A stretch of 46,771 bases of DNA from an uncultured SAR86 cluster bacterium. Its GTDB lineage: Bacteria > Pseudomonadota > Gammaproteobacteria > Magnimaribacterales > AG-339-G14. The position numbers were made by a program, and so were the translations under genes. The notes beneath the pieces are model-generated. The model had not been told where the DNA came from and did no database searches. It saw only the letters and a list, made by a program, of their open reading frames with translations. Location: the NCBI GenBank assembly GCA_902629465.1, contig CACOQX010000007.1, forward strand, positions 1-46,771. Direction: 5' to 3'. Numbering within the stretch: position 1 is the stretch's first letter; each line of letters starts with the position of its first letter. This document shows positions 16,377-37,811 of the stretch, in pieces.

Positions 16377-16408
16377 GAGGGGAAGTTAGACTTTCCCTCT
16401 TAAAAAAT
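16377..16408. terminator. Bidirectional terminator
   Basis: GAGGGGAAG (16377-16385) pairs with CTTTCCCTC (16391-16399) with one G-U pair; the stem is preceded by a T run and followed by TTAAAAAATC. It lies between convergent genes ending at 16369 and 16400 and can end both. Confidence 0.75.
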
Positions 16409-17419
16409 CTTTCTGAAATCGTCGCAAATTCTTTTTAAAGCATAGTCGACTCCATCGACTAACATCATGTTTATGAAGCCATGAATGTAACTGTCATGGG
16501 TGCGATGGTAAATCTCAACATTGGCTTGCCTCAAAGCTTGTGCGTATTGATCACCTTCATCTCTAAGGGGGTCAAATCCTGCAGTCACTACAACAGCTGG
16601 CGGATGACCTGAAAGATCATCTGCGAACAAAGGGGAAACCAATGGATCTTTAACTAAATCTTTATTTTCTAAATAATTATCTCGAAAATATTCCATCGAG
16701 GCTTTAGTCAAATAAAAACCCTCAGCCATTTCATCCATAGAGGGATGTTTTAAAGTAAGGTCAGTAACTGGGTAAATGAGTAATTGTGCTTTTGGCATAG
16801 AGAGCTCTTCTTGTTTGCGTTTAATACATAAAGAGGCAGATAAGTTCCCGCCGGCACTATCTCCACCAACCGATACTCGATTTGGGTTGATTCCTAAATC
16901 CAGTGCATTGTCTCTAACCCAGTTGAAAGCAGCTTCACAATCAGCCAAAGGAATAGGGAAGGGATACTCTGGTGCTAAACGATAATCCACTGAGAAAATC
17001 TTTGCTTTGAGTTCTTTTGCTAAAAATCCAGTAAAAGCTTCATGTGACTCAATACTCCCTATGACCCATCCACCGCCATGAAAGTAAACCACTGCCGGAT
17101 AGATATTCCCAATGGATTCTGGCGAGTACTCTCTAACTCTTATCTCTGCACCATTTGATTTAACGGTGTGATTGGTGGTTTTGACACCCGAGGGTAATGG
17201 CAAAGAAATCATTCCACGACTTTCTTCGAACTCTTTACGAAATTCTGCTGCAGGCTTTGCTGTTTCAAGTTTGGCACCGTTATCTTCCATAACTTTCAAC
17301 AAGTATTGAAAACCGGGATCCAACTTACGATAGCCTTTTATGATCTGTTCTTTACCTGACCATCTGATCAGGATGCTTGCCGGCAATTTGAATAAAAGTT
17401 TAGTGAGAAAAGTACGCAT
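16400..17419 (-). CDS. HSL-family alpha/beta hydrolase (esterase/lipase)
   Basis: 339 residues from the ATG at 17419 (a TTG nine bases upstream is the alternative). Hormone-sensitive-lipase family: oxyanion motif YFHGGGW (about 112-118 from this start), nucleophile GDSAGG with Ser near 188, VDYRLAPEYPFP, acid in DPLRDEGD, and the catalytic His in YIHGF. All three triad members are present. A carboxylesterase acting on short acyl esters is likely. Follows the thermonuclease gene by about 13 bp, so it is in the same minus-strand run. Confidence 0.91.
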   Translation of the reverse strand: MRTFLTKLLFKLPASILIRWSGKEQIIKGYRKLDPGFQYLLKVMEDNGAKLETAKPAAEFRKEFEESRGMISLPLPSGVKTTNHTVKSNGAEIRVREYSPESIGNIYPAVVYFHGGGWVIGSIESHEAFTGFLAKELKAKIFSVDYRLAPEYPFPIPLADCEAAFNWVRDNALDLGINPNRVSVGGDSAGGNLSASLCIKRKQEELSMPKAQLLIYPVTDLTLKHPSMDEMAEGFYLTKASMEYFRDNYLENKDLVKDPLVSPLFADDLSGHPPAVVVTAGFDPLRDEGDQYAQALRQANVEIYHRTHDSYIHGFINMMLVDGVDYALKRICDDFRKIF

Positions 17420-17432
17420 TTGAAGCAACAGT

Positions 17433-20477: not shown

Positions 20478-21305
20478 ATGGCTAGACACAGAGGCGTATA
20501 TAAGCCCGACCACGAATCTCCTTATGAGGTCAGTCGTTCAAGAATTGAAGCCTTTATTAATTGCCCAGCATGCTTTTGGCTAGATCGTGTGAAAGGTGTC
20601 AAATTTCCCGGCATGCCGCCTTTTTTACTAAACTCAGCAACAGATACGCTGCTTAAAAAAGACTTCGATAAGTATCGCGAACTTCAAAAACCTCACCCGT
20701 TTATGAAAAGAAATGGACTTGAACATTTGGTGCCATTCAAACATGAAGACTTTCATTCTTGGACACAGTCTTTGCAACTCGGCTTTAGGACTTATCACAA
20801 AAAATCCGATTTAATTATCGGCGGAGGCCTAGACGATGTTTGGCATAATCCAAAAACAAACGAATTGTTCATTGTTGATTACAAAAGTACTGCTGGTAAA
20901 AGAACCGAAGATTTAACAAAGCTTGAACCCATCACTTTAGAAGGTAGGTGGAAAGAAGGCTACAAACGTCAAATGGATATGTATCAATGGATTTTGAGGG
21001 AAAAAACCAAAGATGATTTAACCGACTACAAAGTAAGCAATATTGGATATTTTGTTTATGTGAATGGCGATCAACATTTTGAAGAGGGTATGTTAAGAGA
21101 GAACGAAAACAAAGCCGATATGAGTTTCGATGTTCAGCTATTAACCTATGAAGGAAAAGACGATTGGGTAGAAAAGGAGATTCTTAATTTGAAGAAATGT
21201 TTAGAACAAAAAACTTGTCCAGAACACGCACAATCCGGTCATGGTCCTAAGGGCACAGATCCTTGCGAATATCATACTTTTTTTGAAACCCTAAATTATG
21301 ATTGA
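20478..21305 (+). CDS. PD-(D/E)XK nuclease, Cas4/RecB-like
   Basis: 275 residues. The nuclease core is visible: GGLDDVW (Asp119/120), then FIVDYKSTAG (Asp134, Lys136), then QMDMYQW (Gln165, Tyr169), as in Cas4, AddB and other RecB-family exonucleases. CPAC at 29-32 near the N-terminus and three Cys near the C-terminus (241, 247, 263) are placed as in proteins that hold a [4Fe-4S] cluster. Thus probably a DNA exonuclease. It is soluble. No CRISPR array is near. Chromosomal relatives of this type also occur outside defence islands, so membership in the island is uncertain. Confidence 0.82.
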   Translation: MARHRGVYKPDHESPYEVSRSRIEAFINCPACFWLDRVKGVKFPGMPPFLLNSATDTLLKKDFDKYRELQKPHPFMKRNGLEHLVPFKHEDFHSWTQSLQLGFRTYHKKSDLIIGGGLDDVWHNPKTNELFIVDYKSTAGKRTEDLTKLEPITLEGRWKEGYKRQMDMYQWILREKTKDDLTDYKVSNIGYFVYVNGDQHFEEGMLRENENKADMSFDVQLLTYEGKDDWVEKEILNLKKCLEQKTCPEHAQSGHGPKGTDPCEYHTFFETLNYD

Positions 21306-21347: not shown

Positions 21348-21983
21348 ATGACTATTAAGAACATGTTTCCCATCGAATTAGGAAGCATTCATGAAATTCT
21401 TGATGAAGTAAATATAGAGAATCTAAAGGATTTTCATGGTTTGATGGGCGAAGTAACAAATTTACCAAATATCATAGAAGATGAGATTAAGGCCAAAGAA
21501 GCTCTAGACTTTATAGAAAAAATAAAAAAAATAGAAAATAATTTTAGACAGTCTAGGCTTGAAGATGGGAAGATATTTAAAGAGGGATTAAAGTCTGTAG
21601 AAAAATTCTATAAAGGTTATGAAAGCTCGCTAAAGGAAAAAAAATTTTTTTTACAAGAAAGAATATCTGATTTTGCAAATAAGTCTGCTGCATCTACTTC
21701 AAATAATCCTTCAAAAAGTTCTGCTGCGTCTGCTGCAAATCATCCATTTAATACTTCTGGGGAAGCATCAAAATCTCAAGAATCTCAGGAATCACAAATT
21801 GAAAAAAATCTTAAACTGAATAGAGAATGGACAATCTCAAAAATAGACATTAATAAATTAGATTTAGAATCATTGAGGAATTTTTTTACTGAATATCAAC
21901 TTAAAATGGTAATTAATAAACACCTAAAAACTAACGGGCCCATATTAGAAGGCGTTGAGTATCAAAAAAAAATAAAGATTTAA
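21348..21983 (+). CDS. Helical protein with a Ser/Asn-rich linker, unknown
   Basis: 211 residues. Residues about 1-110 are helical and charged (KAKEALDFIEKIKKIENNFRQ, KSVEKFYKGYESSLKEKKFFLQERI), fit for a coiled coil. Residues about 111-150 are a low-complexity linker of Ser, Ala, Asn, Gln and Glu. The remainder is a short C-terminal domain (NREWTISKIDINKLDLESLRNFFTEYQLKMVINKHLK). No family recognised. Two domains on a flexible linker suggest an adaptor. Precedes two membrane proteins and a helicase on the same strand. Confidence 0.7.
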   Translation: MTIKNMFPIELGSIHEILDEVNIENLKDFHGLMGEVTNLPNIIEDEIKAKEALDFIEKIKKIENNFRQSRLEDGKIFKEGLKSVEKFYKGYESSLKEKKFFLQERISDFANKSAASTSNNPSKSSAASAANHPFNTSGEASKSQESQESQIEKNLKLNREWTISKIDINKLDLESLRNFFTEYQLKMVINKHLKTNGPILEGVEYQKKIKI

Positions 21984-21997
21984 ATAAAAGCTATTAA

Positions 21998-22246
21998 ATG
22001 AAAAATCAAATTAACGAATTACAAATTTTCATAGATAAACAAAAAGATTCCCTTAAGTTAAAGGTTAGAAAAAAAGCCATAAGCAGAGCCAAGTCCTCTC
22101 TTATTTTGAATGGCAAAAAGGCAGAAGATATTTCCGATGAAGATTGGGAACACTTGGTAGCTGATGAAGAAAGCAAAATATGGCAACAGTATAAGACAGG
22201 CGGTATTGCTGCTGTAGCTGCCTTATTAGGCATCGCATGGTTTTAG
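21998..22246 (+). CDS. Small tail-anchored membrane protein, unknown
   Basis: 82 residues: a helical Lys-rich N-terminal half (DKQKDSLKLKVRKKAISRAK), an acidic middle (EDISDEDWEHLVADEESKIW), and a hydrophobic C-terminus (GGIAAVAALLGIAWF) which can be a short membrane anchor with the body in the cytosol. Starts 14 bp after the previous gene and its stop TAG abuts the next ATG. No family recognised. Confidence 0.68.
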   Translation: MKNQINELQIFIDKQKDSLKLKVRKKAISRAKSSLILNGKKAEDISDEDWEHLVADEESKIWQQYKTGGIAAVAALLGIAWF

Positions 22247-22594
22247 ATGTTCATTTATCGCTTTATCAGAGACAATTTTAAACCTCTAATCAAGGGAGTC
22301 ATTCCTGTAGCTTTAATTTATTTTGTCTTGAATCCATTGTATTGGATGTGGGACCCAAAAATTTCAGAAATAGGTTATGGCATTCATTTATTGGTAATAT
22401 TCACATTGACATATCTAGCCATTTTTTTTTGGTCCTTCTATCATTTAAGACATATTTTTTCTGACGAAAAAGCAAAACAAATGAAAATAGCAAGGCAATC
22501 TATCGCTAAAGAAGAAGATCGATTGGATAGATTAATGAATCTCGAGGCTTACCCATCTTTAAAAAGTAAATCAGATAAAATTCTAAAACAGTAA
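22247..22594 (+). CDS. Two-span membrane protein, unknown
   Basis: 115 residues with hydrophobic segments at about 14-31 (LIKGVIPVALIYFVLNPL) and 44-66 (GIHLLVIFTLTYLAIFFWSFYHL), followed by a charged cytosolic helix (DEKAKQMKIARQSIAKEEDRLDRLMN). Its ATG follows the preceding stop directly and its stop is 12 bp before the helicase start. Paired membrane proteins next to a nuclease or helicase are often the effector or anchor of a defence system; here that is inference only. Confidence 0.68.
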   Translation: MFIYRFIRDNFKPLIKGVIPVALIYFVLNPLYWMWDPKISEIGYGIHLLVIFTLTYLAIFFWSFYHLRHIFSDEKAKQMKIARQSIAKEEDRLDRLMNLEAYPSLKSKSDKILKQ

Positions 22595-22606: not shown

Positions 22607-24676
22607 ATGAGTAAAGGTTTTAGAACAGTTTATTTAAAAGATAAAAAAATTTCTAACTTAGAAGAGCTTAAATCTTCACTTTCCGAAAACCCCACAAATG
22701 AAACAAAAATAATTAGGTATTTTTATAATAATTTAAACGTTAATTGGGAAATTTATATAAAACCTTATTTGAACGGACTTCAACCCGATATGATTCTAAT
22801 GAGGGAAGATACCGGCATTATCACTGTAAGATTCGATAAAGAAAATCCAACCGGAATAGACCCCGAAAACCATTTAGAACTTCTTCAAAGAGAAATTAGA
22901 ACAGTTCTTTGCCCAAGTTGTTATGACTCTTTTTTAAAAGATTGGCCACCAGAAGTAGGCGAATATGAAAAAAAACTTTTTCTTCCTGTAATTACATCTT
23001 GCATAATCTCAACAGAGCAAAATTCTTCTGAAATGGAAGAAAAATATGAAAAATTTGCTGACAAAAGCATTACAGCAAAAGACTACCATAGGTTGATTTC
23101 CAAGGACGATCTTCAAATAAAAGATGTGAAAAAAAATATCCCTTTTCTTCAATACGACGGAAGGTCTACTAAAATGAATAGTCAAATTTATAAGGAATTA
23201 AAATTTTGGCTAATGCCATATGAATCAATGTTCGAGGAAAGTAATTATTTTTCTTTAGCAACTATGCAACCTTTGGCTTTAGATAAGACTCAAGAGCAAT
23301 TAACCAAGGAAAGAACTGCATCTGGATTCAGAAAAATTAAAGGACCTGCGGGGTCTGGGAAAACAAATATTCTATCTTTTAGAGCTCTAAATTGCTCATT
23401 AGAAAGTAAGTCAGTTCTATTTCTCACACAAAACAGATCTTTAATCCCATATTTGATGAACTGTATATTTAGGGCAATCAAGTCAAAAAAAGAAGAATTT
23501 TTAATTTCAAAAGATAGAGGCAGCATTAGATATGATCATTTTTACTCATTCGCATACAAAATTTCCAAACTCTTAGGCTGGGAAAATAAAAAAGGGGAGC
23601 TTAGGAATGTAAGCAATTTCTTGGGCAACAACGAAAAAATTTCTAGAGAAGAGGTAGGCGAAGCAATGTTAGAAGACATCCAAGCGAAAAAGTTAACAAA
23701 TCCAAAATTATTTGAAAAGTTAACTTTTGATGTAATTTTGGTCGATGAATTCCAAGATTGGCTAAAGCATGAATGGTTAATAGCAAAAGAATTTCTTAAA
23801 GAAGGGGGAGAGATGGTAGCGGCAGGGGATGCAACTCAAGATGTTTTGGGAACAGATGCCAAAACAAATTTTGATGAGCCTCATGCTCTTCAAGGATATG
23901 GACTCCCATCGCGATGGAGAGAATTACAGACGTCTTATAGACTTCCTTATGATTATGTACCCTTAATGGAATCTTTTTTGAAAGAATTTTTGCCAAAAAA
24001 AGGAGTGATGATTCCAGAAAATAGACAAAGAGACGCATTCACTGAAACATATGTAGACTGGATAATGGTTAGAGACGAAAATGAGTCTATAGACCAAATC
24101 ATATTTGAAATTGAGCATTTTAAATCCGAAGAGGATATTTCTAACTTATTATTTCTAGCAGATTCAAATATGTCAGGCTATATAGTTTTAAGTGAGCTCA
24201 TTAATAGAGGTACTTTACGGGAGAACGAAATTACCCACACCTTTCCATATTATGGCCCAAAAAAAAGCAATGAAGATTTTCGTAAAGCCCCCAAAGGTTT
24301 GTTTACAAAAGAAGGCACGAAGCATAGAACTGGCAGGATTTTTTCAATCTACAATGAAGATGCAAGAATAAGAAATCGAAGTGGTTTTTTTGTCCAACGA
24401 AATACTCTAAAAGCATCCACCATAATGAATTTCAAAGGCTTGGAGGCTAAAAATATAATTTTCCAAATAAACAAAATGAATGACGAGGAGGATAAAGAAG
24501 AATATTTTACAGAAGTTTATACTGGGCTTAGTAGGTTAGCTTCAGTTGCAGATCTTGACGAATCCAAAGGCCAATATTTTTCGGGTATCAAAGTAATCTG
24601 TTCTGAACCAATGTTTGCCGAATATTCCAAGTCTTGGAAAAATTTTGCAAAGAAAGAGATTTCTCCTGATTTTTAA
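22607..24676 (+). CDS. UvrD-like SF1 helicase with degenerate NERD-like N-terminus
   Basis: 689 residues. Walker A GPAGSGKT (246-253), Walker B/DEFQD (380-384), GDATQDVLG, TIMNFKGLEAKNIIF and YTGLSRL (motif VI) identify a UvrD/Rep-type superfamily 1 helicase. The N-terminal 200 residues resemble a NERD nuclease region: the PD at 60-61 remains, but where the partner gene has LEVK this one has ITVRF, so the ExK part is lost and cleavage is doubtful. The central 220 residues have no assigned domain. It ends tail to tail with the other helicase, with stops overlapping by four bases. Likely the motor of the left arm. Confidence 0.83.
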   Translation: MSKGFRTVYLKDKKISNLEELKSSLSENPTNETKIIRYFYNNLNVNWEIYIKPYLNGLQPDMILMREDTGIITVRFDKENPTGIDPENHLELLQREIRTVLCPSCYDSFLKDWPPEVGEYEKKLFLPVITSCIISTEQNSSEMEEKYEKFADKSITAKDYHRLISKDDLQIKDVKKNIPFLQYDGRSTKMNSQIYKELKFWLMPYESMFEESNYFSLATMQPLALDKTQEQLTKERTASGFRKIKGPAGSGKTNILSFRALNCSLESKSVLFLTQNRSLIPYLMNCIFRAIKSKKEEFLISKDRGSIRYDHFYSFAYKISKLLGWENKKGELRNVSNFLGNNEKISREEVGEAMLEDIQAKKLTNPKLFEKLTFDVILVDEFQDWLKHEWLIAKEFLKEGGEMVAAGDATQDVLGTDAKTNFDEPHALQGYGLPSRWRELQTSYRLPYDYVPLMESFLKEFLPKKGVMIPENRQRDAFTETYVDWIMVRDENESIDQIIFEIEHFKSEEDISNLLFLADSNMSGYIVLSELINRGTLRENEITHTFPYYGPKKSNEDFRKAPKGLFTKEGTKHRTGRIFSIYNEDARIRNRSGFFVQRNTLKASTIMNFKGLEAKNIIFQINKMNDEEDKEEYFTEVYTGLSRLASVADLDESKGQYFSGIKVICSEPMFAEYSKSWKNFAKKEISPDF

Positions 24677-26247
24677 TTTGTTTTTAAAAGATATAGTTTA
24701 TGTTTTGCTCTAGAAGTCCCTGTATATAAATCCAATTCTGAAATAGTATCATCTATATCCATTAGAATGACAACATCAGAATCCAAACCTTTAAAACGTT
24801 TAATTGAACTAAAAAATATTTTATTGTTTTGACCTCTTTTAGTAGAAATATCGACTTCTAATTTGTACCTCAGATTCCAAAGAATACTTTTTTTAGTGGA
24901 TTTTGCAGTCAAAATTGTTATAGAACTCAAAGCCACCTTTTCTTTTTTTATTAATTTATCCAAAATATCATTGATTTCCGACACTTGATCTTCTTCATTT
25001 TTAATATTTTTTACTTTTATATCTTCTCCCTCAGGACTATGTATAAACATATTTGGTGTTTCTCCTACATAGTCATAGGCAGCTTTTGCAATTTTTTCGG
25101 TATTTCGACAGTTTTTTAAAAGATGGAAAGGTCTCAAATCGAACTCGCCTAAATGTTGATCTAGTTGATAGACATTTTGTTTTGGGTCGGTAAAAGCCCA
25201 ACAATAACTTTCCGATGGATGTCTCAAACAATCCATAATTGAAATCCACCACTCTTTTCTAAAGTCTTGAGCTTCATCAACTAAAATAACATCCCATCTT
25301 TTTTCTTCATCTTTAGTAAGCGCATCACTTAAAAGATTTGCAGTTTCGACATTCCAGAAATTGTCTTTATCCCCATCTTTGGGTTCGTTCCAGGAACCAC
25401 CTGTCTTAGTAATGAAATAACGACAAAGCCCATGAAAATTAAAGACATCGATATTGCTAGTACTAGTTTTGAGTTCTATTTCTTCTGTCAATGGACGGTT
25501 GTAACACAAATACAAAACGTCTTTATTTTCTTCAAGTTTTCTCCTAGCAAATTCCAGAGCCAAGATAGTCTTACCAGTGCCAGCTCTGCCACTAATCAAT
25601 ACTTTTCTTTGTCCTTCGAGCTGATCGATGGCTTCATGTTGTTCTTTGGTTAGACTGACGAAGATTTGTTCTTCGCGGTTAATCGTATCCTGAAGAGTAG
25701 GGTACAAATTAAATTCTGGAGCAACGATATTCAAAAAAGAATTTATGCTATCTTGATTCAAAGTGAGTGATTTGCCGTAAGTTTTCAGTTGGCTATCAAA
25801 AATTTCCTCCATGTAAGGTAGTTGATCAGAAAAAATAATCTTTTCTTTTGGCAAATCCGATCCCAAGTTAACGTTTGTTGATCCAATAGATGGGAAAACC
25901 AGATTCCAACCCCAAAACTTAGTTATTGGATGTCCTTTCTTTTCCAATAAGTCATACATTAAGGAGCGTGCTTTTTGCATTTTGTCTACTGGGTCATCAA
26001 TTCTTTTTTCTGATTGTTTCCAGCCAGATTCATCTCTTGAAATCGCGCCGCCTTTTACTTCAAGACAAATCCAACCTTTCTCAGGATTTACCAATATAAA
26101 ATCTATTTCTTTTTCTTTTTTACCTGAAATGACTCTTTGTCTATGTAATATTTGCCAAGAATCGGGTAACTTTGATAAGTGATTTCTTACTTCTAATTCG
26201 TATTCGTCTGAGTTTTCGTTTGGAATTGGAGGATAGATTTTAGCCAT
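24673..26247 (-). CDS. NERD nuclease-helicase (NERD-UvrD fusion)
   Basis: 524 residues. N-terminal NERD domain of the PD-(D/E)XK fold with an intact core: KEIDFILVNPEKGWICLEVKGG (Asp49, Glu63, Lys65). Then a UvrD-like superfamily 1 helicase: SGRAGTGKTILAL (Walker A 220-227), VDEAQDF (324-328), TDPKQNVYQ, KRFKGLDSDVVILM and YTGTSRAKHKLYLL at the end. So it can couple DNA unwinding to cutting. It is the last gene of the long minus-strand operon and overlaps the winged-helix gene by eight bases. Closest in layout to the convergent helicase, suggesting a divergent pair with one dead and one live nuclease. Confidence 0.86.
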   Translation of the reverse strand: MAKIYPPIPNENSDEYELEVRNHLSKLPDSWQILHRQRVISGKKEKEIDFILVNPEKGWICLEVKGGAISRDESGWKQSEKRIDDPVDKMQKARSLMYDLLEKKGHPITKFWGWNLVFPSIGSTNVNLGSDLPKEKIIFSDQLPYMEEIFDSQLKTYGKSLTLNQDSINSFLNIVAPEFNLYPTLQDTINREEQIFVSLTKEQHEAIDQLEGQRKVLISGRAGTGKTILALEFARRKLEENKDVLYLCYNRPLTEEIELKTSTSNIDVFNFHGLCRYFITKTGGSWNEPKDGDKDNFWNVETANLLSDALTKDEEKRWDVILVDEAQDFRKEWWISIMDCLRHPSESYCWAFTDPKQNVYQLDQHLGEFDLRPFHLLKNCRNTEKIAKAAYDYVGETPNMFIHSPEGEDIKVKNIKNEEDQVSEINDILDKLIKKEKVALSSITILTAKSTKKSILWNLRYKLEVDISTKRGQNNKIFFSSIKRFKGLDSDVVILMDIDDTISELDLYTGTSRAKHKLYLLKTN

Positions 26248-26485
26248 AATTTAATTCCCAAATGCCTTTAGGACTATCTTCGGCTGGTTTAATAGTTCCT
26301 TTTTCTCTTAACTTTGTAGCTGCCCAGCGATAATCATACTGCCAAGTATAAAAAAGATCTGTCCCAGACAAATCCTTTTCATGAATTTCCCAAATTTTTT
26401 TTGCTACTTCTAAAAGAGTACCAGAACCATTAAGTGCTTCTAAAGCTTCTACTACCCAATCCATTAAATCTTCTTTAGCAGCCAT
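26240..26485 (-). CDS. Mrr_N/HARE-HTH-like winged-helix protein
   Basis: 81 residues: MDWVVEALEALNGSGTLLEVAKKIWEIHE, then YDYRWAATKLREKGTIKP and KGIWELNYG. The pattern of a GxG turn, a helix pair, WAATKLREKG and a final GxWEL strand is that of the small winged-helix domains found at the front of Mrr-type restriction enzymes and HARE-HTH proteins, which sense or bind modified DNA. Here it stands alone instead of being fused to a nuclease. Overlaps the helicase gene by eight bases and follows the AIPR gene by two, so it may target these proteins. Family call is by pattern only. Confidence 0.6.
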   Translation of the reverse strand: MAAKEDLMDWVVEALEALNGSGTLLEVAKKIWEIHEKDLSGTDLFYTWQYDYRWAATKLREKGTIKPAEDSPKGIWELNYG

Positions 26486-26487
26486 TC

Positions 26488-28674
26488 CTAATTCTCAAAA
26501 TATTCAAACCCATTATTTTTTGCTTCAATTCTTATATCAAGGGCAGCTTGGAACTGTTTTTCAGTCGGAACCCTTCGTTGTTTGGATACAAACTCCGCCA
26601 TCAAATTTGGCAAACTCACTTGTTTGTCAGTTAATTCGTAGCCTTTTTCGGTATTAAATTCAGCAAGAGCTCTCCATTCAGACTCAGAAATATTCATTAC
26701 TTGTTGAAAATCTGATATTTGCGCTGATACTTTTTTTGTTTCTTTTTGCTCTTTTTGCATTTGTTGTTGTTGATTAGCATTCAGCCAATCGTTTCTATTT
26801 AATTTAGAAAAATCGAACTGATAATCTAAACTTTTAAAAGCTTCCCAAGAATTTTTTCTTTTAGTAAATTCACTAATATTTGCAATTCCGTTTCTAAAAT
26901 TATCATCTCTCATTTTGTTTCTAACGAAATTCGCCAATTTAAGAATTTCATTTAAAAAATCCTCTGAAATGGATTGATTTTTATAAATTGTTTCCAAATT
27001 AATATCTTTTTTTTCTTTTTTAAAAATATGTCTAAGAAATGCGAGAGTAAAAGTTGTTGTTTCAGCCTTGAGACCTCTATCATCTTTATACCATTCAGCT
27101 CTATTTATCTCAGAGTCTGTTTGTTTGAATAGTATAGCTTTAGCAACAATGTCTTTAAAAAATGGCTCTTCAAAATCATCAGGATTTTTGTCATATTCCC
27201 TAGACAAAATATCTCCCATAATTACAAAGTTTTTTTGGGCGCCCTGTTTTACTTCATGAGGATTCATTCGCCAAGTATTTTCATACTTTGCTAAATCAGT
27301 TTTAGTAAATAACTGACTTCTAGGGAATTTTATTTCAAATTGTTTTTGTTTGCTGGGAGTCAGCTCTTTTCTTCTTTTTGTTTTATAAGCGCCCCTAGCT
27401 CTTTCATAGAACCAAAAGGTTGAGGTAACCCCTTGTCCTGCAGGCATGGGCAATCTCAAAGAAATCTCTTCTAAATTTTTATGAAAGGGATGGTTGGAAT
27501 TCAAATCAGCTGTATTTACTGCGTTTTGTGAATTTGCAAATCTAGCAATATCTGCTTGCATTTTATCTGTTACGATCTCTTCACTGATAATTGTCAATTT
27601 CATTTGCAAAAATACTTTTGATAAATCGATATCCTGCCATCTTTGTCCACTGGCAATTCTAGATTTATCTTTAGGAGCGAAAAAAATTGAGGCAGCTGTT
27701 TGGCCGCCATTTACAATTTGCATATCATCTATATGGGTGATTTCTAATCCATTACTGCCAGATTTAGTCTTAATATTTTTTCCAGTTACTGTCAGTCCAT
27801 TATTAAAAGCAAAAAAGTATTCAGGCTCTAGAAGTAAAGTTTCGCGGATTCCTTTGTTTACTTTACCTGTAAAATCTAGAAATGTTCTTACATTGCTCTC
27901 AAGCAATCTTTGACCAAACTCATCGTAAAGTTCACTGAGTAATTTTCCAGGCATCACGCACAGATAAGACTCAATGCCGGATTCATTATTTTCCACGTTA
28001 GCAGGCAAGGCTTTAATGGTTTGTTTTCTTTCGAGGAAATTTACGTTAACCGGTTCAGAAACTGTATCGGAATCTTCGATATCCTTAAACCTTTGGAGGT
28101 CATACACTTCTAAGAAGCAATCCTTGTTTTTAATTTTTCTTTTGAGAGTAAATTTTTGGTCTTTTTTAGAGAAATCTTTTTTTGCACGATCACTCAGTAC
28201 TTTAGATGTTAATACTGCAATTCTAATTTTAAGGATTTTGATATCTTCATTTCCTTCATCTTTTTGAAAAAAGAAATTGATATTTTCTGCTGCTTCATAA
28301 CCTTCCGAAGCTTTTTCTAAATGGTCGTAATTGGATTTTTCTATCTGTTCGAGAAATTTTGTGACTCTGTTTCCGGCTTTTTCAGTATCTGTTTTGGATA
28401 TATTTACAATCTTATCTTCGTCTTCAAAATCGGTAACTATACAAGAGAGAATGCCATCAGATTCATTGAAGCTAAAACCATCAAGTCTTATTCCTTTTGA
28501 AGACTCAATATGAGCCTCATCAAAAATTACAGGATCATCAAAAAAACCATTTTCTGTTAAAAGTTCTGTGTAGTCTTTGGTAAAGGCAGTTGTAAGGAAC
28601 ATACCATCTCCCAGTTGACTGAGTTTCCAATCTTCTTGTTTTTTTAATTTATAGTCGAGAAGCTCATTAGCCAT
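26488..28674 (-). CDS. AIPR family protein (abortive infection type)
   Basis: 728 residues of the AIPR family named for abortive phage resistance. The two hallmark motifs are present: FFAFNNGLT (287-295) and QIVNGGQTAAS (319-329). The N-terminal 200 residues (RLDGFSFNESDGILSCIVTDFEDED) resemble a degenerate restriction-endonuclease-like region; the C-terminal part is helical and ends in an HSDR-like YELTDKQVSLPNLMAEFVSKQRRVP stretch. The function is taken from the family: an effector in restriction or abortive-infection systems. Start overlaps the DUF4420 gene by eight bases, tying it to that nuclease. Confidence 0.87.
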   Translation of the reverse strand: MANELLDYKLKKQEDWKLSQLGDGMFLTTAFTKDYTELLTENGFFDDPVIFDEAHIESSKGIRLDGFSFNESDGILSCIVTDFEDEDKIVNISKTDTEKAGNRVTKFLEQIEKSNYDHLEKASEGYEAAENINFFFQKDEGNEDIKILKIRIAVLTSKVLSDRAKKDFSKKDQKFTLKRKIKNKDCFLEVYDLQRFKDIEDSDTVSEPVNVNFLERKQTIKALPANVENNESGIESYLCVMPGKLLSELYDEFGQRLLESNVRTFLDFTGKVNKGIRETLLLEPEYFFAFNNGLTVTGKNIKTKSGSNGLEITHIDDMQIVNGGQTAASIFFAPKDKSRIASGQRWQDIDLSKVFLQMKLTIISEEIVTDKMQADIARFANSQNAVNTADLNSNHPFHKNLEEISLRLPMPAGQGVTSTFWFYERARGAYKTKRRKELTPSKQKQFEIKFPRSQLFTKTDLAKYENTWRMNPHEVKQGAQKNFVIMGDILSREYDKNPDDFEEPFFKDIVAKAILFKQTDSEINRAEWYKDDRGLKAETTTFTLAFLRHIFKKEKKDINLETIYKNQSISEDFLNEILKLANFVRNKMRDDNFRNGIANISEFTKRKNSWEAFKSLDYQFDFSKLNRNDWLNANQQQQMQKEQKETKKVSAQISDFQQVMNISESEWRALAEFNTEKGYELTDKQVSLPNLMAEFVSKQRRVPTEKQFQAALDIRIEAKNNGFEYFEN

Positions 28675-29638
28675 CTTGAATTATATCTGTAATATCTCTA
28701 TCAATTAAAAAATCACCCAATTGGTTAGATTCTATAGAGTACCTTACTGTGGTAATCGCATTATCTCCTATTTCTGCTCTAGTTATTTTGGGAAAATTGT
28801 CATTAACATCATATATCTTTAAATTTAAAAAAATGAATTTCTGATTTAGTTCACTTTCTGAGGCTTTATTCATAAATCTGCTTAATTTCTTTTCAAACTC
28901 TATCTGGCTTGTTAAATCTGTAGTCATCTGACGAGACAAATCGTCATAAAAATCTTGAATAGATATCCCTTCTTCAATATTTCCTTCATTAATAAATACT
29001 TGTGCGAGGTAAAGTTTTTCTGTGATTTTTTCAAGCTGTTCTTTGGAGGAGATTTTTATTATTGCATCATCTCCAGACATCGTTGTTTTAGTCTCAATTG
29101 CTAAGTTCGTCATGGAAAAGTCTTGTTTTTTATCCCTTGGCCCAATCCAATACCTAACTGCATCAGTCAAAGGATGCAAAGCAATCATGAAATTTCTAAG
29201 AATATAAAGTTCACCCCAAAGCCCTATAAGCTTTTCTCGACCAAGGCTGCTCCTGTCAGGTCTAAGAAATCCAGACCACTCCTTTATTTCCCGTTTTGCA
29301 GAGCTAAATATATTTTGATCATTTTCTTTAGAAAGAGTATAAGCAAGTGCTTTAGTAACTACGATAAATTTATCTTTTAGTTCTATATCTTCAAGTTTAA
29401 CCACAAACCTTGACCACGTTGCGTAATTCTCTATAGATACGCTAGCACCATTCAAAATATCTATGTTTTCTGGTTTGTGCTTGCCTTTAATTTGAATAAA
29501 AAAAACAAGCCTATAGTCAGCATCCACAGCAGCCCACATTCTTTTATCTTTTTCGTAGAATGAGAGTGCCTCACCTGGATAATTGGGAGTATCAATTTTT
29601 TCCCAAGGATCTTCTCTAAAAAAACTTTCTAATTTCAT
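28667..29638 (-). CDS. DUF4420 PD-(D/E)XK nuclease
   Basis: 323 residues of the PD-(D/E)XK motif family (DUF4420). Core positions: GLWGELYIL (Glu143), KQDFSM (Asp173) and AIETKTT (Glu182, Lys184), the usual E/D/E-x-K set of the restriction-endonuclease fold. In MORC-type restriction systems this is the cutting subunit. No target-recognition domain is seen, so specificity must come from other subunits. It overlaps the Z1 gene by four bases (ATGA) and the AIPR gene by eight, consistent with a complex made in fixed ratio. Confidence 0.87.
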   Translation of the reverse strand: MKLESFFREDPWEKIDTPNYPGEALSFYEKDKRMWAAVDADYRLVFFIQIKGKHKPENIDILNGASVSIENYATWSRFVVKLEDIELKDKFIVVTKALAYTLSKENDQNIFSSAKREIKEWSGFLRPDRSSLGREKLIGLWGELYILRNFMIALHPLTDAVRYWIGPRDKKQDFSMTNLAIETKTTMSGDDAIIKISSKEQLEKITEKLYLAQVFINEGNIEEGISIQDFYDDLSRQMTTDLTSQIEFEKKLSRFMNKASESELNQKFIFLNLKIYDVNDNFPKITRAEIGDNAITTVRYSIESNQLGDFLIDRDITDIIQDG

Positions 29639-32550
29639 GCATCTCCACCATGCTCTACATCAAAATCATCTTCCTGTTCTTCAAAAAGATCCATTTGAAG
29701 TTTTTCATGAATTCTTGTAACTAAATACTGTGTAGACGCCTCCCTATTCATCTCCCTGATTTCAGCATCATTCATATCTCTCATGTTTTCCAGAATTGGA
29801 AAAGAAATGGCATACCCCAAAGTGGGCTGTCCAGGAAAAGCGTATCTTACACTTCTCAGATGTTGGGGATCCCCTTCAGAAGCATTTTGCATTGCATCCT
29901 GAGGGGACAAAATTCCAAGGTTGAACAGGTAAATGCTAAGACCAGGAAAATCTCTGTCATCAGATCTTATGTAATCTGCGCTAGTAGCTCTTTTTTTCTT
30001 ACACTCGTCTTCTACTTTTTGTCTTAAATCGGGATGAATGAACTTTCTCTCTGCATTAGGATCTCCTAAATCGGACATTGACGACTCTATTAATGCTCTA
30101 TTTGATCCAGCTTTTCTTAAACCAGGCTTAACAACAACGCCATCTAATGTATAGCTCTCAACAAATCCTTCCTGATCTTGAATTTTTTTACTCCACCAAG
30201 TTTCGGATTGAGTTTCTGCAGTAAATAAACAAATTTTAAACTTTGGAGAATTTTCACCTTCGCAAAGAGCTCTAATACTGTTTATTACGTGAGTATTCTC
30301 AATAAGTTGATCATCATTTATTTTAATATTTTCAATAAAATCAATAATTTTTTCATGAGGAACATCATGATAAATTTTTGAACTATCATTTTCATTTTTT
30401 TCCCATTGCTCGGTTTCTATTCCCTCTTGAGTTAGATTTTTAAGGAAGTTATTACAGTATTTTAAGTTTTCTTTATTCTTTTTTTCATCATCATAAAAAG
30501 AAAATCTTTTTATTCTTTGGCCCCAGATTTCATATGATTTAACGGTATTGGCCGCATAGCCAATTTTATTTTTTGCGGTAATAATTAATGATCCAGGATG
30601 ATTTCTCACTTTTAATCCAAAGTCTTTGGGTGTTCTGTTTAAACGTACCATCTTGTCGAGTTCAGCATACAACTCTAGTATTGCGCCACTTATAAATCGA
30701 TACCATTCTAAGGATTGTTTTGGCATGAAGACCTTGCATATGTCTTTATAACCGGGTCTGTATCCAAACCAACGACACATTTGCATCAGGGTATCGTATG
30801 AGCGTGAATTTCTCGCAAAATATGAAATTGATAGACCCTCAAGAGTCAACCCTCGAGACAATTTGTGCCCACCAATAGCAATTACAGACAGACCCTTAGG
30901 GTAAACTGAATAATCCAAGGATTCTTGATCTCTAGCTGTTGAGTTTACTCTTAAGATTTTTATTTTGTTCACAGACCATTTAAGTTCCTCAAACACATCC
31001 TCCCAAGACTCTTTGATAGAGTAGTACTTTTCAAAATTATTTTTAACTTCCTTGATAAATGGATCTTTTAAAGAACCTTTAGGTCCTAAACCCCAATAAG
31101 ATTCAAATCGATCCTTCCCAACATCCATAAAATCAGATATTTTTTCTTGCACTTTAATTTGCAAAGCATTGAAGTGGGTAACATTTACCAACATGGTGTC
31201 ATGTTTCTCTGAGACATCTTCTCTTATTTTCTTTATTGCGCCATTGAGAATAAAACAGCAAATTGCATCTTCTAAAGACTTAGGTAATGAACCAATTTCC
31301 ATATCTTTCTTTTGTTTAGATATAGGAAGCATATCCTCATTATCATTAATAACTATTACCGGAGAACTTACATTGGATTCGTCTTCAAAATCTCCACCAT
31401 CATTTTGATTGGCATAGAAGAATTCTTGACCACAATATTCTTCTGGAACAGGAATTCTTATCATAAAATCTTTCGGGAATAAATCTTCAGCAAGGATATC
31501 GTCATCCTCATCTGGATCAATAAAAACATTACCGAAAGGCGTTGCAGAATATCCTACGTATGTCGATTTGCTAAATTTACTTAAGATAGACCTTATTTCA
31601 GCATTAATTGCTGAAATTTCTTCTTTATGCTTCTTTGCATTAATAGAAGCATAATCAGACTCATCATCAATGAAGAGCAAAGGTGCTTCTAAAGTACCGT
31701 CCTCGGCTAAATTATTATTTTCCACAATCCATCTTTTTAGGCTTTCAAGAATAGGTTTGATTTTTTTTACACAAAATACAACAGGCATTTCAGTATTTCT
31801 TAAAGGATAATTAAGTCCATTTGCAAGTCGCGTATTAAAATCTTGTTCAGTGGTCGTAAAAGCAACTACTTCAGCATCCATCTGTCTACTAGGTTCCAAT
31901 CCAACTCCGACAGGTTCTGCTCCTGTTGCTATACCTGCTTCGATAAGATTCCTTGATAGCTTGCCAATAAAACCCTCATCTATTCTTGCTTGAGTTTGGT
32001 TTCTTAACTCGTTTTGATGACCACCTAAAACAATTATTATTTTGTACCCAACATCCACTGCTTTATTAAGAAGGCCTATAAAATTTTGAGTTTTACCTGA
32101 TTGAACATTACCCATAACTAAGCCTTTTCTAGCCCATCTCCCTTCTGTATGAGGATCGCCAGATAAATCTAAAATATTATCGATGATTTCACTATTTTCA
32201 TTAATTAACGCGAGGGGCCTGCCTTGCTTTAATAGATATTGTTTATAAGCATTCCAAAAGTTCCATTCAATTTCTCCTCTTTTATCGTCAAGCCATCTTT
32301 CAACATCAGTATTTGCTAGGATATTGCCTTCTAAAGAGAATGAAGTTGAAATACTACTTCTAATGTGGAATTCAACTCTACTTCTCTCTTCGTCATTCAA
32401 ATCTGGAAGATTAGCTAAGGGGCCTAAGTTATTGAAAGCTTCTTCAAAAAAACTATCATCCGCCATTTTTTCATCTATCTCTTCTTTTCTAAGAGACGAA
32501 AGTACATTAAGAATGAGAGTTTCCCAATTTTTTACATTCTCTAAATTCAT
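29635..32550 (-). CDS. Z1-domain superfamily 2 helicase
   Basis: 971 residues, the largest gene of the system. Walker A in GNVQSGKT (147-154), Walker B as FIDDESD (293-299), and the downstream helicase core AIGGHKLSRGLTLEG with RNSRSYDTLMQMCRWFGYRPGY (about 570-620) are the Z1 signature. The family is a translocase or helicase in restriction systems with MORC-like ATPases. The last 300 residues hold a mixed alpha/beta part without clear similarity, ending with an acidic tail (EEQEDDFDVEH). Starts inside the last codons of the ATPase gene (four-base overlap). Confidence 0.92.
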   Translation of the reverse strand: MNLENVKNWETLILNVLSSLRKEEIDEKMADDSFFEEAFNNLGPLANLPDLNDEERSRVEFHIRSSISTSFSLEGNILANTDVERWLDDKRGEIEWNFWNAYKQYLLKQGRPLALINENSEIIDNILDLSGDPHTEGRWARKGLVMGNVQSGKTQNFIGLLNKAVDVGYKIIIVLGGHQNELRNQTQARIDEGFIGKLSRNLIEAGIATGAEPVGVGLEPSRQMDAEVVAFTTTEQDFNTRLANGLNYPLRNTEMPVVFCVKKIKPILESLKRWIVENNNLAEDGTLEAPLLFIDDESDYASINAKKHKEEISAINAEIRSILSKFSKSTYVGYSATPFGNVFIDPDEDDDILAEDLFPKDFMIRIPVPEEYCGQEFFYANQNDGGDFEDESNVSSPVIVINDNEDMLPISKQKKDMEIGSLPKSLEDAICCFILNGAIKKIREDVSEKHDTMLVNVTHFNALQIKVQEKISDFMDVGKDRFESYWGLGPKGSLKDPFIKEVKNNFEKYYSIKESWEDVFEELKWSVNKIKILRVNSTARDQESLDYSVYPKGLSVIAIGGHKLSRGLTLEGLSISYFARNSRSYDTLMQMCRWFGYRPGYKDICKVFMPKQSLEWYRFISGAILELYAELDKMVRLNRTPKDFGLKVRNHPGSLIITAKNKIGYAANTVKSYEIWGQRIKRFSFYDDEKKNKENLKYCNNFLKNLTQEGIETEQWEKNENDSSKIYHDVPHEKIIDFIENIKINDDQLIENTHVINSIRALCEGENSPKFKICLFTAETQSETWWSKKIQDQEGFVESYTLDGVVVKPGLRKAGSNRALIESSMSDLGDPNAERKFIHPDLRQKVEDECKKKRATSADYIRSDDRDFPGLSIYLFNLGILSPQDAMQNASEGDPQHLRSVRYAFPGQPTLGYAISFPILENMRDMNDAEIREMNREASTQYLVTRIHEKLQMDLFEEQEDDFDVEHGGDA

Positions 32551-33935
32551 TTTTTATTTTCTTTTTTAAAAAAATCCAAAAAGATTTTTTCAGCTTGTTG
32601 ATATTTTTCTAGCAAATGTTCTTGCTTTAAATCTAAAGGCCTAGAATGTAAAGTAGCTAAAATATCATTTACAGGCAAGTCAGCAGAAAGATTTCTTAGA
32701 TACTTCGCAAAACCTTTTTTTTGGGTTGAATTCAAAGAAGAAAGTAGCTTTAGTAAGTCATCATTATCTGACCTAACCTCATATGTAATTATTTTTTCTC
32801 TCTCGTCTTCTCTTTTAACCCAATATTTTTTTGGTTCTTCTTTTCCTTTATAGGTATATGTTTTTTTTGAACGCTTAGTTGGTGTTTTTAATACTTCCTT
32901 TAGCAGAATTTTTACTTTCCTAGGTATTTGCAGAGAAGATTTTTTAACATCTACTTCCCAGAGATTATCCAGCTCAACAGGTATATTTATTTCAACTCTT
33001 GCCAAATCATTAAGTTTGTTGTTCATGGTTAAACCTAACCAACCTCCTTCAATAATTAATCGATTTCCTCTATAAAGATAAAGCCCTTGCTTCTTTGAAA
33101 TTTCTTCTGAGCCACCGTATTCGTCTAGCTTTTCTTTACTAAGTCTGTTCCAGTGAGGAATGGTATGAGACTTGATAGAAATCTTAGAAAGTCCTTGCCT
33201 CATAGTTTCTTCCTCTCCCTCTTGATAACCGGAAAGTTTTTTCATAAAAGGATCTATGGGCAAAAGAGCATCTTGATTAACAAAAAAATTTATTTTTTCT
33301 TTGCCTTCTATAAATTTATGAAAATACAAAGAAAGATGTTTTTTAATCGAGCTTATGTCACTAGAAATTTCTGTTTCTAAATCTTGATGATCAGTGTCAT
33401 CATATCTATCCATTTTTTCCCAAATTATTTGAGTGCCAGAAGAATTTAAATTTGATGATATTTCTAGGTAATCCAAACTTTTACATTCTTCTTCGCTTAA
33501 TATCTCTAAAACCCAGTCATTTTCTTTGATAATTCTTTCCACATTCCAGCTAGCTCCAGATATCGGCTTCCCTTTTTTCTTAGAAATCACTGTGAGTACT
33601 TTTGCTTGAGAAAGACTTGCTGTCTTCAAGCCTGAACCAAACCTACCTAAGTCCATTTGATCTCTCTCTTCAGCTGGGTCTTTACAACCTATGACCATGT
33701 TTTCCTGCAACTCTTCGGGACTCATGCCGTAGCCATCGTCAGCTATAGACCAAAATATGTTCTGAGTACCAGGAGGGCATGTGATTGAGATTTTTTTCGC
33801 TTCTGCAGTGACTGAGTTATCAACAATATCTGATATTGCTGATTCAAGCGTATAACCAATTTTAGAGAGCATTTTTATTTCATTCTCAACCTTGGGTCTT
33901 TTTGTAACTGTTTTACGATTGAAACTTTTACTCAT
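32547..33935 (-). CDS. MORC/MutL-like GHKL ATPase
   Basis: 462 residues with the GHKL (Bergerat) ATP-binding fold: ESAISDIVDNSVTAEAKKISIT (31-52, with Asp36 and Asn40), ADDGYGMS (65-72), GRFGSGLKTASLSQA (98-112). This is the ATPase found with Z1 helicases in the prokaryotic MORC-type restriction systems. The second half has the S5-like and MORC-like extension, with KTPTKRSKKTYTYKGKEEPKKYW as a basic strip that could bind DNA. ATP-driven dimer closure on DNA is expected from GHKL relatives. Overlaps both neighbours: eight bases with the TerB-like gene and four with Z1. Confidence 0.88.
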   Translation of the reverse strand: MSKSFNRKTVTKRPKVENEIKMLSKIGYTLESAISDIVDNSVTAEAKKISITCPPGTQNIFWSIADDGYGMSPEELQENMVIGCKDPAEERDQMDLGRFGSGLKTASLSQAKVLTVISKKKGKPISGASWNVERIIKENDWVLEILSEEECKSLDYLEISSNLNSSGTQIIWEKMDRYDDTDHQDLETEISSDISSIKKHLSLYFHKFIEGKEKINFFVNQDALLPIDPFMKKLSGYQEGEEETMRQGLSKISIKSHTIPHWNRLSKEKLDEYGGSEEISKKQGLYLYRGNRLIIEGGWLGLTMNNKLNDLARVEINIPVELDNLWEVDVKKSSLQIPRKVKILLKEVLKTPTKRSKKTYTYKGKEEPKKYWVKREDEREKIITYEVRSDNDDLLKLLSSLNSTQKKGFAKYLRNLSADLPVNDILATLHSRPLDLKQEHLLEKYQQAEKIFLDFFKKENKK

Positions 33936-34266
33936 TTTTATCTAGCATAAAATGCTCTGCTTTTTGATAAGCAATATTTTCTTTAATTTCTAAACCATCT
34001 GCGGTAGCACTTTGCTCTGCAATCTCTAAAGCCAAAGCTTTGTCTTCAGTATTCTCAAAGGGATTGCAATAATCCTCAAGTTGATCGTTAGTAGAAAAGA
34101 ATTCAAAAATCAAATCCTCAAAATTTTTTCTAGTAAGTTTTTTGAATTTATTATTTCGATTTATTAGTTCAAAAATCTTATCTTCTTCGGTTTGTGAAAT
34201 TACCCCATCTTTTGCACAGATACATAGGGACAAAAAAACAAAGGGCTTAGATTCAATTTTTTTCAT
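33928..34266 (-). CDS. TerB-like acidic protein
   Basis: 112 residues with two copies of an acidic helix-turn pattern: CICAKDGVISQTEEDKIFEL (about 16-35) and AEQSATADGLEIKENIAYQKA (about 83-104). The xAxADGx7-8E arrangement is that of TerB/DjlA-type metal-binding helical proteins. TerB-like domains have been connected to stress and DNA-associated defence complexes, so a structural or regulatory role beside the ATPase is plausible. It overlaps the methyltransferase gene by 14 bases and the ATPase gene by eight, so it is made with them. Call is based on pattern only. Confidence 0.6.
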   Translation of the reverse strand: MKKIESKPFVFLSLCICAKDGVISQTEEDKIFELINRNNKFKKLTRKNFEDLIFEFFSTNDQLEDYCNPFENTEDKALALEIAEQSATADGLEIKENIAYQKAEHFMLDKNE

Positions 34267-35212
34267 TTTCTTTTAATGCAGAAAGCATATTTTTTGCAAT
34301 CTCTTTGACAACTGGTACGGCAACAGCATTTCCAAATTGCCTGTAAGCTTGATTATCACTCACTGGTAAATTCTCCCATCTTTTTGGAAAACCTTGAAGT
34401 CTCGCACATTCTTTGGGAGTTAACTTTCTAGGATTTTTTCGTTTTCCCCGAGAGATTAGAATCTCCGATCCATCTTTGTAATATCTAGAAGATAAAGTTC
34501 TTGTATAACTATCTTTTTCATCATTAAGAGTAAAACCAAAGCCTTTTCCTTCTGCTAAGTTTCTCTTTTTTCTTATTTTATGGCTCCTCCACAATTTTCC
34601 AGAAATGATATATTTTTTTTCAACTTCATCAGAAGGCTCTAAAATATTTGATAGGCAAGTTTTTCTTTTTCTTTTGGATGGAAAGTGGAAATCCACATTC
34701 TTTTTAAAACCAACAATGAAAAGTCTTTTTCTGTTTTGCGGTAATCCAAAATCCCTTGAATTTAATATTGTTGGACAATCAGGAAAAAAATAACCCAACT
34801 CTTTTTCTAAGATATTCATGATTGTTTCAAAGGTCTTTCCGCCATCGTTTGATTTAAGACCAGGTACATTTTCTAACAAAAATGCTTTTGGTTTATGAAA
34901 CTTTATTATTCTGGAAATTTCATAAAATAGAGTTCCACGAGTGTCTTTGAAACCTTTCTTTTTCCCAGCATTTGAGAAAGGTTGACATGGAAAGCCTGCA
35001 AGCAAAATATCATGCGAGGGTATTTCCTTTGCCGGAGTTTTGGTTATGTCAGCATTTATAAGATTTTCATCCTCCTTGAACATTACAGCGTAACTAGTTC
35101 TAGCAAATTTATCTATTTCTGAAGAAAATACACATCGACCCCCAAGTTTTTCAAACGGTATTCTCATTCCGCCAATACCTGAAAATAAATCAATAAAGTT
35201 AAACTTATCCAC
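34253..35212 (-). CDS. dcm: DNA (cytosine-5-)-methyltransferase
   Basis: 319 residues, complete and with all main motifs in order: I, FIDLFSGIGGMR (6-17); IV, AGFPCQPFSNAG (72-83, catalytic Cys76); VI, FLLENVPGL (111-119); VIII, NRKRLFIVGF (160-169); IX, RLQGFPKRW; X, QFGNAVAVPVV. It transfers a methyl group from SAM to C5 of cytosine; the target-recognition part between VIII and IX is short, and the recognised sequence cannot be told. No Vsr-type repair nuclease lies next to it, although Vsr often accompanies this set. Seven bases after RmuC and overlapping the TerB-like gene. The symbol denotes the family only. Confidence 0.94.
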   Translation of the reverse strand: MDKFNFIDLFSGIGGMRIPFEKLGGRCVFSSEIDKFARTSYAVMFKEDENLINADITKTPAKEIPSHDILLAGFPCQPFSNAGKKKGFKDTRGTLFYEISRIIKFHKPKAFLLENVPGLKSNDGGKTFETIMNILEKELGYFFPDCPTILNSRDFGLPQNRKRLFIVGFKKNVDFHFPSKRKRKTCLSNILEPSDEVEKKYIISGKLWRSHKIRKKRNLAEGKGFGFTLNDEKDSYTRTLSSRYYKDGSEILISRGKRKNPRKLTPKECARLQGFPKRWENLPVSDNQAYRQFGNAVAVPVVKEIAKNMLSALKENEKN

Positions 35213-35219
35213 TTAGTGT

Positions 35220-36110
35220 CTAATTTTCTTCTTCTAAGTTTTCAGCTCCTTTTTCAAGTTTTCTGCCAAGGACATTAATTCTAGTTTGCACTTTTTGGAC
35301 GTCTTTCAGTGCTCCATCTAATTTTTTCATTGCTGATTCCGTGCTTAAGTCAAAATTTGAAAACTCTTTCTGAATACCTCTGACTACCTTCGCTACCTTC
35401 GCTGCTGTTTCATTCAATTTAAGATAATGATGTCCGACGCGAACCGTATCGAGAAATGCTGCAAGAGTATTAGGACCCTGAATCAAGACTTTCTTATCGG
35501 TTAGACACTCTTGTCTTAAATCTTCTATTTGGTCTACAAGATCAACTAATTTTTCTGATGCTATATATAAAATCGCATAGTTCGATGTAGTATTTTGTAA
35601 AATATATTTTTCTGAGATATCTGAGGCATCTCTTAATATTGCGGTTCTCAAATCTCTCAAAACAGTTTTGCGATCTCTGTCCGTTGATGCACTTTGATAA
35701 TTATTGTATTGACCAACATAAAGCTTTGAATCTATCGGAACCTTTATACCGTCTGCAGTAATAACTGCACAATCAACTTGGTCTGAAGTTTCAGGATTAA
35801 TTATGTGTTGAAAATGATAACTCCCATCCGGCATGATATCTCTAACGATAGATTCTAGACTCCATTCTCCTAGCCTACCTGTTGTAACATTGCCACCGAG
35901 AAATCTATTCAATTCTCCAAGTGGGGTAGTTACTGATAAAAGTCCTTCATTTATCTTGTTTATATCTTGAGCCAACGTATCTATTTTTTGTATCTGGCTG
36001 GCACTCTCATTTTTATTAAGAAAAGATGTTTCTCTTTGGGATATCAAGATATAAACAAGCAAGAAAATAACTACTAACAATCCAATGAATAATAAAGTAT
36101 CAACCATCAT
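35220..36110 (-). CDS. Short RmuC-family protein, membrane-anchored
   Basis: 296 residues. One membrane segment at about 5-23 (TLLFIGLLVVIFLLVYILIS), a coiled stretch, then the RmuC core: GRLGEWSLESIVRDIMPDG (about 78-96), VPIDSKL, ILYIASEKL and VLIQGPNTLAAFLDTVRVGHHYLK. The core has a PD-(D/E)XK-like fold in RmuC, where it limits recombination between repeats. Chromosomal RmuC proteins are usually over 400 residues; this short form skips much of the N-terminal coiled coil. It is the one recognisably recombination-related member of the restriction operon. It starts inside the last codons of the upstream gene (11-base overlap, ATGATG). Confidence 0.84.
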   Translation of the reverse strand: MMVDTLLFIGLLVVIFLLVYILISQRETSFLNKNESASQIQKIDTLAQDINKINEGLLSVTTPLGELNRFLGGNVTTGRLGEWSLESIVRDIMPDGSYHFQHIINPETSDQVDCAVITADGIKVPIDSKLYVGQYNNYQSASTDRDRKTVLRDLRTAILRDASDISEKYILQNTTSNYAILYIASEKLVDLVDQIEDLRQECLTDKKVLIQGPNTLAAFLDTVRVGHHYLKLNETAAKVAKVVRGIQKEFSNFDLSTESAMKKLDGALKDVQKVQTRINVLGRKLEKGAENLEEEN

Positions 36111-37609: not shown

Positions 37610-37811
37610 TACAAAAGTACTCCTTATCTTTTTGCGATGCTTCCCAGGCCTTGAATATTTCTGGATCTCCACCAGCATTGGTATGAATTTCTATGCTCGT
37701 AAGAAGCTTTTCACCTTTAACCAAAAAGTAAACTCCTGTAAAACCTTCTTTAATTATTCGCCCATCCGTTAGAATTTCATTCATAAGTTCTTTGTTTTTA
37801 TCTTTACTCAT
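37602..37811 (-). CDS. 69-residue protein, first gene of the long operon
   Basis: 69 residues: MSKDKNKELMNEILTDGRII, then KEGFTGVYFLVKGEKLLTSIEIHTNAGGDPEIF and a final helix. Soluble, mixed alpha/beta, with no recognised family. It opens the operon 23 bp after the right copy of the 17-bp motif and overlaps the WYL start by eight bases; its final codons contain the WYL ribosome site. It may work with the WYL regulator. Confidence 0.65.
   Translation of the reverse strand: MSKDKNKELMNEILTDGRIIKEGFTGVYFLVKGEKLLTSIEIHTNAGGDPEIFKAWEASQKDKEYFCNE

Follow-up and report, generated by a model that had tools for sequence, protein, structure and literature searches.

A NERD-UvrD helicase without its nuclease catalytic pair and an intact NERD-UvrD protein meet tail to tail at a variable defence hotspot of an SAR86 bacterium

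Gene content of the two convergent arms

The window, that is, the whole stretch of 46,771 nucleotides analysed here (contig CACOQX010000007.1 of an uncultured SAR86 cluster bacterium), carries at positions 17428-38659 a defence hotspot that is variable in this lineage. It lies between an esterase/thermonuclease block and dsbB-polA, and its flanking genes are the esterase (16400-17428) and a DsbB-like gene (38659-39270). Two arms of opposite orientation meet inside it, the plus-strand arm ending with helP (22607-24676, 689 amino acids) and the minus-strand arm with helM (24673-26247, 524 amino acids). The coordinates and reading frames that the first-pass annotation had given to both helicases are correct, as is the four-base overlap that it noted between their stop codons: the helP stop TAA occupies 24674-24676 and the helM stop 24673-24675, with TTAA at 24673-24676 common to both. 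The junction shows no terminator-like site, and antisense read-through across it is possible.

helP closes a run of five genes opened, four genes upstream, by a RecB/Cas4-like PD-(D/E)XK nuclease (20478-21305, plus strand) whose motif DD..DYK..Q..Y is intact and which is a paralogue of another gene present in this genome and its relatives. The nuclease is followed on the same strand by a 211-aa orphan protein (21348-21983), by two small hydrophobic proteins of 82 and 115 aa that belong to no family (21998-22594) and by helP, the successive intergenic gaps being 42, 14, 0 and 12 bases.

On the minus strand the genes stand in the order MzaB-MzaC-MzaD-MzaE: a GHKL/MORC-type ATPase (MzaB-like, 32547-33935), a Z1-domain protein (MzaC-like, 29635-32550), a DUF4420 PD-(D/E)XK protein (MzaD-like, 28667-29638) and an AIPR protein (MzaE-like, 26488-28674). 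The scores of MzaB and MzaE fall far below the NCBI equivalog cut-offs, and the run is therefore named MZA-like. None of its genes encodes an MzaA sigma factor, and most MZA-like type II systems lack mzaA too (PMC9523054). An 81-aa protein without family match (26240-26485, minus strand) separates mzaE from helM, the last gene of the run; from its sequence one might guess at a winged-helix fold. Also on the minus strand lie a DNA cytosine-5 methyltransferase (34253-35212), an RmuC-family protein (35220-36110) found at the same site in siblings G026, G027, G036 and G039, and a WYL-type regulator (36611-37678) with 73-83% identity to those in the loaded islands of G036, G038 and G039.

Nuclease and helicase domains of helM and helP

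The layout of NERD region followed by UvrD helicase that had been proposed for both proteins holds, on different grounds for each. In helM both domains are recognized by Pfam (NERD at E=2e-10, plus UvrD), and the protein, with a NERD D...ExK motif and a UvrD helicase, is of the PADLOC RTasNERD-Hel type. A Pfam NERD search of the organism's own genome gave no match although hmmscan detects the NERD domain of helM, which marks the limit of sensitivity of that search. The nuclease core D49, E63 and K65 named by the first-pass annotation is kept in helM and in 14 of 14 aligned relatives, with Q in place of V in two of them. Relatives of helM adjoin several other systems, namely a DUF1998/helicase set, DUF3883-type proteins, and a sigma factor-helicase set with Dcm and Vsr; no close relatives were found in viral contigs. 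The last of these contexts is recurrent: in L180 (2132-11320) and L181 (7941-17129) a set of a sigma-70 factor, a 1014-aa helicase and a 569-aa protein lies tail to tail with a Dcm-Vsr-NERD-UvrD set, adjoining phage-like genes.

For helP the domain layout rests on its match to a defence family, on its relatives and on a fold model. The protein itself has no Pfam NERD match; residues 23-531 match the PADLOC family C3a187 'NERD+UvrD' (PDLC01087) at E=2.8e-41, and its alignments to relatives cover the full length at about 21-31% identity, Pfam NERD being matched by 44 of the 47 members of an alignment (A4) that includes the window. These matches place helP, by sequence, in the usually single-gene C3a187 NERD-UvrD family. 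Relatives of helP type were drawn from plasmids, class genomes, viral contigs and one genome per species (75 loci); a genome scan with the full-length alignment yielded no confirmed locus of this type, and the loci were found by scanning with the N-terminal alignment. They occur in defence islands, plasmids and viral contigs, and one has CRISPR genes as neighbours. In L103 (9896-14162) a live C3a187 gene is followed directly by MotA/ZorA-like and OmpA/ZorB-like genes, which, judged by sequence, suggests a Zorya-like association for that member. Close relatives of helP were found neither in its genus, family or order, nor in viral contigs searched with its own peptides, nor in phage records.

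The fold of the helP N-terminus is predicted to be that of NERD and PD-(D/E)XK nucleases. Residues 1-224 modelled alone (pLDDT 81) match the PD-(D/E)XK nucleases Can2/Cdn1 at Z 8-9, the best score of 9.1 being middling, and resemble EndoMS, McrC, Card1, FokI and HamA at Z 5.7-7. With Foldseek alone this model had no match better than E 0.001, and a search of solved structures by sequence with the N-terminal profile gave nothing convincing; the assignment depends on VIA-align and on homology to the NERD-positive relatives. The first-pass annotation would have abandoned its proposal had this N-terminus shown no NERD fold, and the list of structures matched by the model is instead dominated by PD-(D/E)XK enzymes.

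The catalytic E and K of the family, by contrast, are gone from helP. At position 75 its 88 relatives carry E in 86 cases, D in one and a gap in one, and at position 77 K in 86 and a gap in two, whereas helP has R75 and D77; among the 87 relatives that cover the motif, 86 have both E75 and K77. The register is set by an ungapped block from W47 to N80, in which the consensus GIAVFEVKDWN corresponds to GIITVRFDKEN in helP, the degenerated strand ITVRFDKEN being encoded at 22820-22846 (plus strand). About 30 residues that follow the motif in the family are also absent. E32, P60, D61, G70 and P86 are retained, so that the D of the D...ExK motif is still present and its E and K are not. This agrees with the earlier observation that the plus-strand protein keeps PD (60-61) with ITVRF in place of LEVK. 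A frameshift hiding the motif was considered and rejected: since the other frames across the site carry stops and no motif, a simple frameshift does not explain the loss. Because a pair conserved in 86 relatives has been replaced, helP is classed as a catalytically lost variant and not as an active NERD nuclease, and the annotation of helM as live and helP as dead with respect to nuclease activity is well supported by the residues lost in one and kept in the other. PD-(D/E)XK enzymes can shift a catalytic residue elsewhere, as some restriction enzymes do, and nearby acidic or lysine residues of helP might compensate for the loss; for these reasons the nuclease is best described as presumably inactive.

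A second case exists in the family. A C3a187 protein from Poribacteria (L116, 9935-11821), in surroundings where no defence genes were recognised, lacks the NERD ExK motif and has a similar deletion, and, judged from the sequences, the loss has arisen independently in two of the 89, that of the window and that of L116. The searches gave no close relative for helP, so its own loss may have come about through recent decay confined to one lineage.

The helicase tells a different story from the nuclease. The whole-protein model (pLDDT 80) matches UvrD at Z 27, and helP carries the SF1 motifs with every invariant residue in place (K252, D380/E381, Q383, R445, K610 and R643). Its branch is the longest of the family tree, 5.8 changes per column compared with a median of 0.3, and this length makes its position in the tree unsure. 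The NERD region has drifted furthest among the 89 sequences, with 26% identity to the consensus compared with 36% for the helicase. The very long branch, the lost catalytic pair and the deletion of 30 residues are what would be seen if helP were a decaying gene without a role. We regard such decay as improbable: over that same branch a frame of 689 codons has stayed open and all helicase motifs have been kept, which indicates that the helicase is held under constraint.

Distribution of the two genes and nature of their contact

The first-pass annotation saw in helP and helM a live/dead pair that could work as a heterodimer, or of which one member could regulate the other. In favour of the idea, the genes of a live and a dead NERD-UvrD protein touch here at their 3' ends. 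Nevertheless, the proteins fall in two different NERD-UvrD families, and the relatives of each are found without the other alongside. A single draw of 369 class genomes was scanned for helP, helM and MzaC. Four genomes match helP strongly (E below 1e-10), ten match helM (E below 1e-20) and eight match MzaC (E below 1e-40), and the three sets overlap only in the genome of the window. Co-occurrence was examined in this draw of one class and in the family-wide loci. Among the latter, 88 helP-type loci with their flanks contain no MZA genes, and in three of them (L104, L103 and L002, the match in L002 being weaker, at E 3.6e-17) a gene resembling helM is found at a distance of up to 10 kb, never adjacent. 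No partner gene is conserved across the C3a187 family either, no gene being common to more than 9 of the 88 loci. In these genomes and loci the proposed link between the two proteins thus found no backing in co-inheritance or conserved adjacency, and a heterodimer or regulatory pair is very improbable, the more so as the geometry of their contact is repeated at this hotspot by other genes.

That recurrence is seen in the siblings. Between the esterase and the DsbB-like gene lie 1.4 kb in both G026 and G035. The distance rises to about 2 kb for G028, G031 and G034, to 4.4 kb for G027, to 12-13 kb for G036 and G038 and to 20 kb for G039, and it is 21 kb in the window. The loaded siblings G036, G038 and G039 share the WYL regulator and most of them also an RmuC gene of the window type, which sits, without other cargo, even in the near-empty site of G026. 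The cargo differs: PsyrTA-like genes in G038, Mokosh-like and KAP-type genes in G039. At the junction of the two arms in G038 the stops again overlap by four bases, the partners there being a small protein related to the 115-aa protein of the window and an unrelated 611-aa protein. Since the overlap is repeated with different genes, the convergent contact seems to be characteristic of the insertion site. In G038 the 82 and 115 aa hydrophobic pair (L206, 4302-4921) directly faces the PsyrTA-like cassette, without helP.

The company of helP raises another possibility, a two-subunit nuclease-helicase in which helP supplies the motor and the RecB/Cas4-like protein of 20478-21305 does the cutting. 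The two genes are co-oriented and joined by gaps of at most 42 bases, the nuclease has an intact motif and is an extra copy beyond its paralogue in the same genome, and such a gene is missing from the neighbourhood of the live helP relatives; the member that lost its nuclease is thus the one with a spare. Neither this type of nuclease nor the small partner genes were found around the 88 helP-type loci. The arrangement is known from one case only; L116, the other independently dead relative, has no recognised nuclease neighbour, and the occurrence of the intervening small pair in G038 without helP means that the run may be a chance assembly. We therefore hold a split enzyme to be unlikely, though worth keeping in mind. 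Its evolutionary version, in which a single-chain nuclease-helicase became a motor or sensor after loss of NERD catalysis and cutting passed to a captured RecB/Cas4-like nuclease of the same operon, is doubtful to a slightly greater degree. If it were true, helP and this nuclease would be a natural split nuclease-helicase defence system.

Proposed roles and comparison with known systems

Taking the evidence together, we propose, with moderate confidence, that helP is a nuclease-dead translocase or sensor, that helM is an intact effector appended to the MZA-like operon, and that the two are in contact through the hotspot and not through pairing. In the model, helP would have lost nuclease catalysis while retaining the nuclease fold and the SF1 helicase, and would most likely act as an ATP-driven DNA translocase or sensor. 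Its former nuclease domain may bind or guide DNA, or dock a partner, as in RecC, and the intact RecB/Cas4-like nuclease four genes upstream possibly serves it. helM is most likely a live cutting effector added at the end of the MZA-like operon, a reading suggested by its intact motif and by the defence contexts of its relatives. The tail-to-tail position of the two genes would reflect the meeting, at the hotspot, of two cargo arms that were acquired separately and run in opposite directions, helP and helM forming no pair.

NERD-UvrD proteins are widespread in defence islands and little studied. Natural loss of the catalytic site separates the helicase and sensing functions from cutting and offers a ready-made test of the need for the nuclease. 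The locus also illustrates how unrelated systems can come to resemble a convergent pair when they share a variable defence hotspot.

Compared with the rest of the C3a187 family, helP shows full-length homology and the same order of NERD and UvrD-type helicase, but it has lost the catalytic E and K and about 30 residues, and it ends a five-gene run whereas the relatives have no constant partner genes. The minus-strand arm shares with MZA (mzaABCDE) and the MZA-like type II systems (PMC9523054) the order of GHKL ATPase, Z1, DUF4420 and AIPR proteins and the cytosine methyltransferase. It differs by the presence of helM and the 81-aa gene at its end: both are absent from 11 other MZA loci, in none of which was a NERD-UvrD gene found.

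AddAB, which the first-pass annotation had invoked as the model for a working pair, likewise consists of helicase-nuclease proteins with SF1 helicases. There nuclease domains are present in both subunits and one helicase is dead; here one nuclease is dead and both helicases look intact. Moreover, the two subunits of an AddAB-like enzyme should be encoded together and co-inherited, whereas helP and helM show neither co-inheritance in the genomes and loci sampled nor an operon link, and the analogy is not supported. RecC carries an inactivated nuclease-like domain with a new role and, like helP, keeps a PD-(D/E)XK fold without catalysis within a helicase-nuclease machine (PMC1185551). RecC is one subunit of RecBCD, whereas in helP the dead nuclease fold and an intact helicase share one chain. 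The helicase folds of RecC are dead as well. Nevertheless, since it is the nuclease that is dead at this locus while both helicases look intact, RecC is a closer precedent for helP than AddAB.
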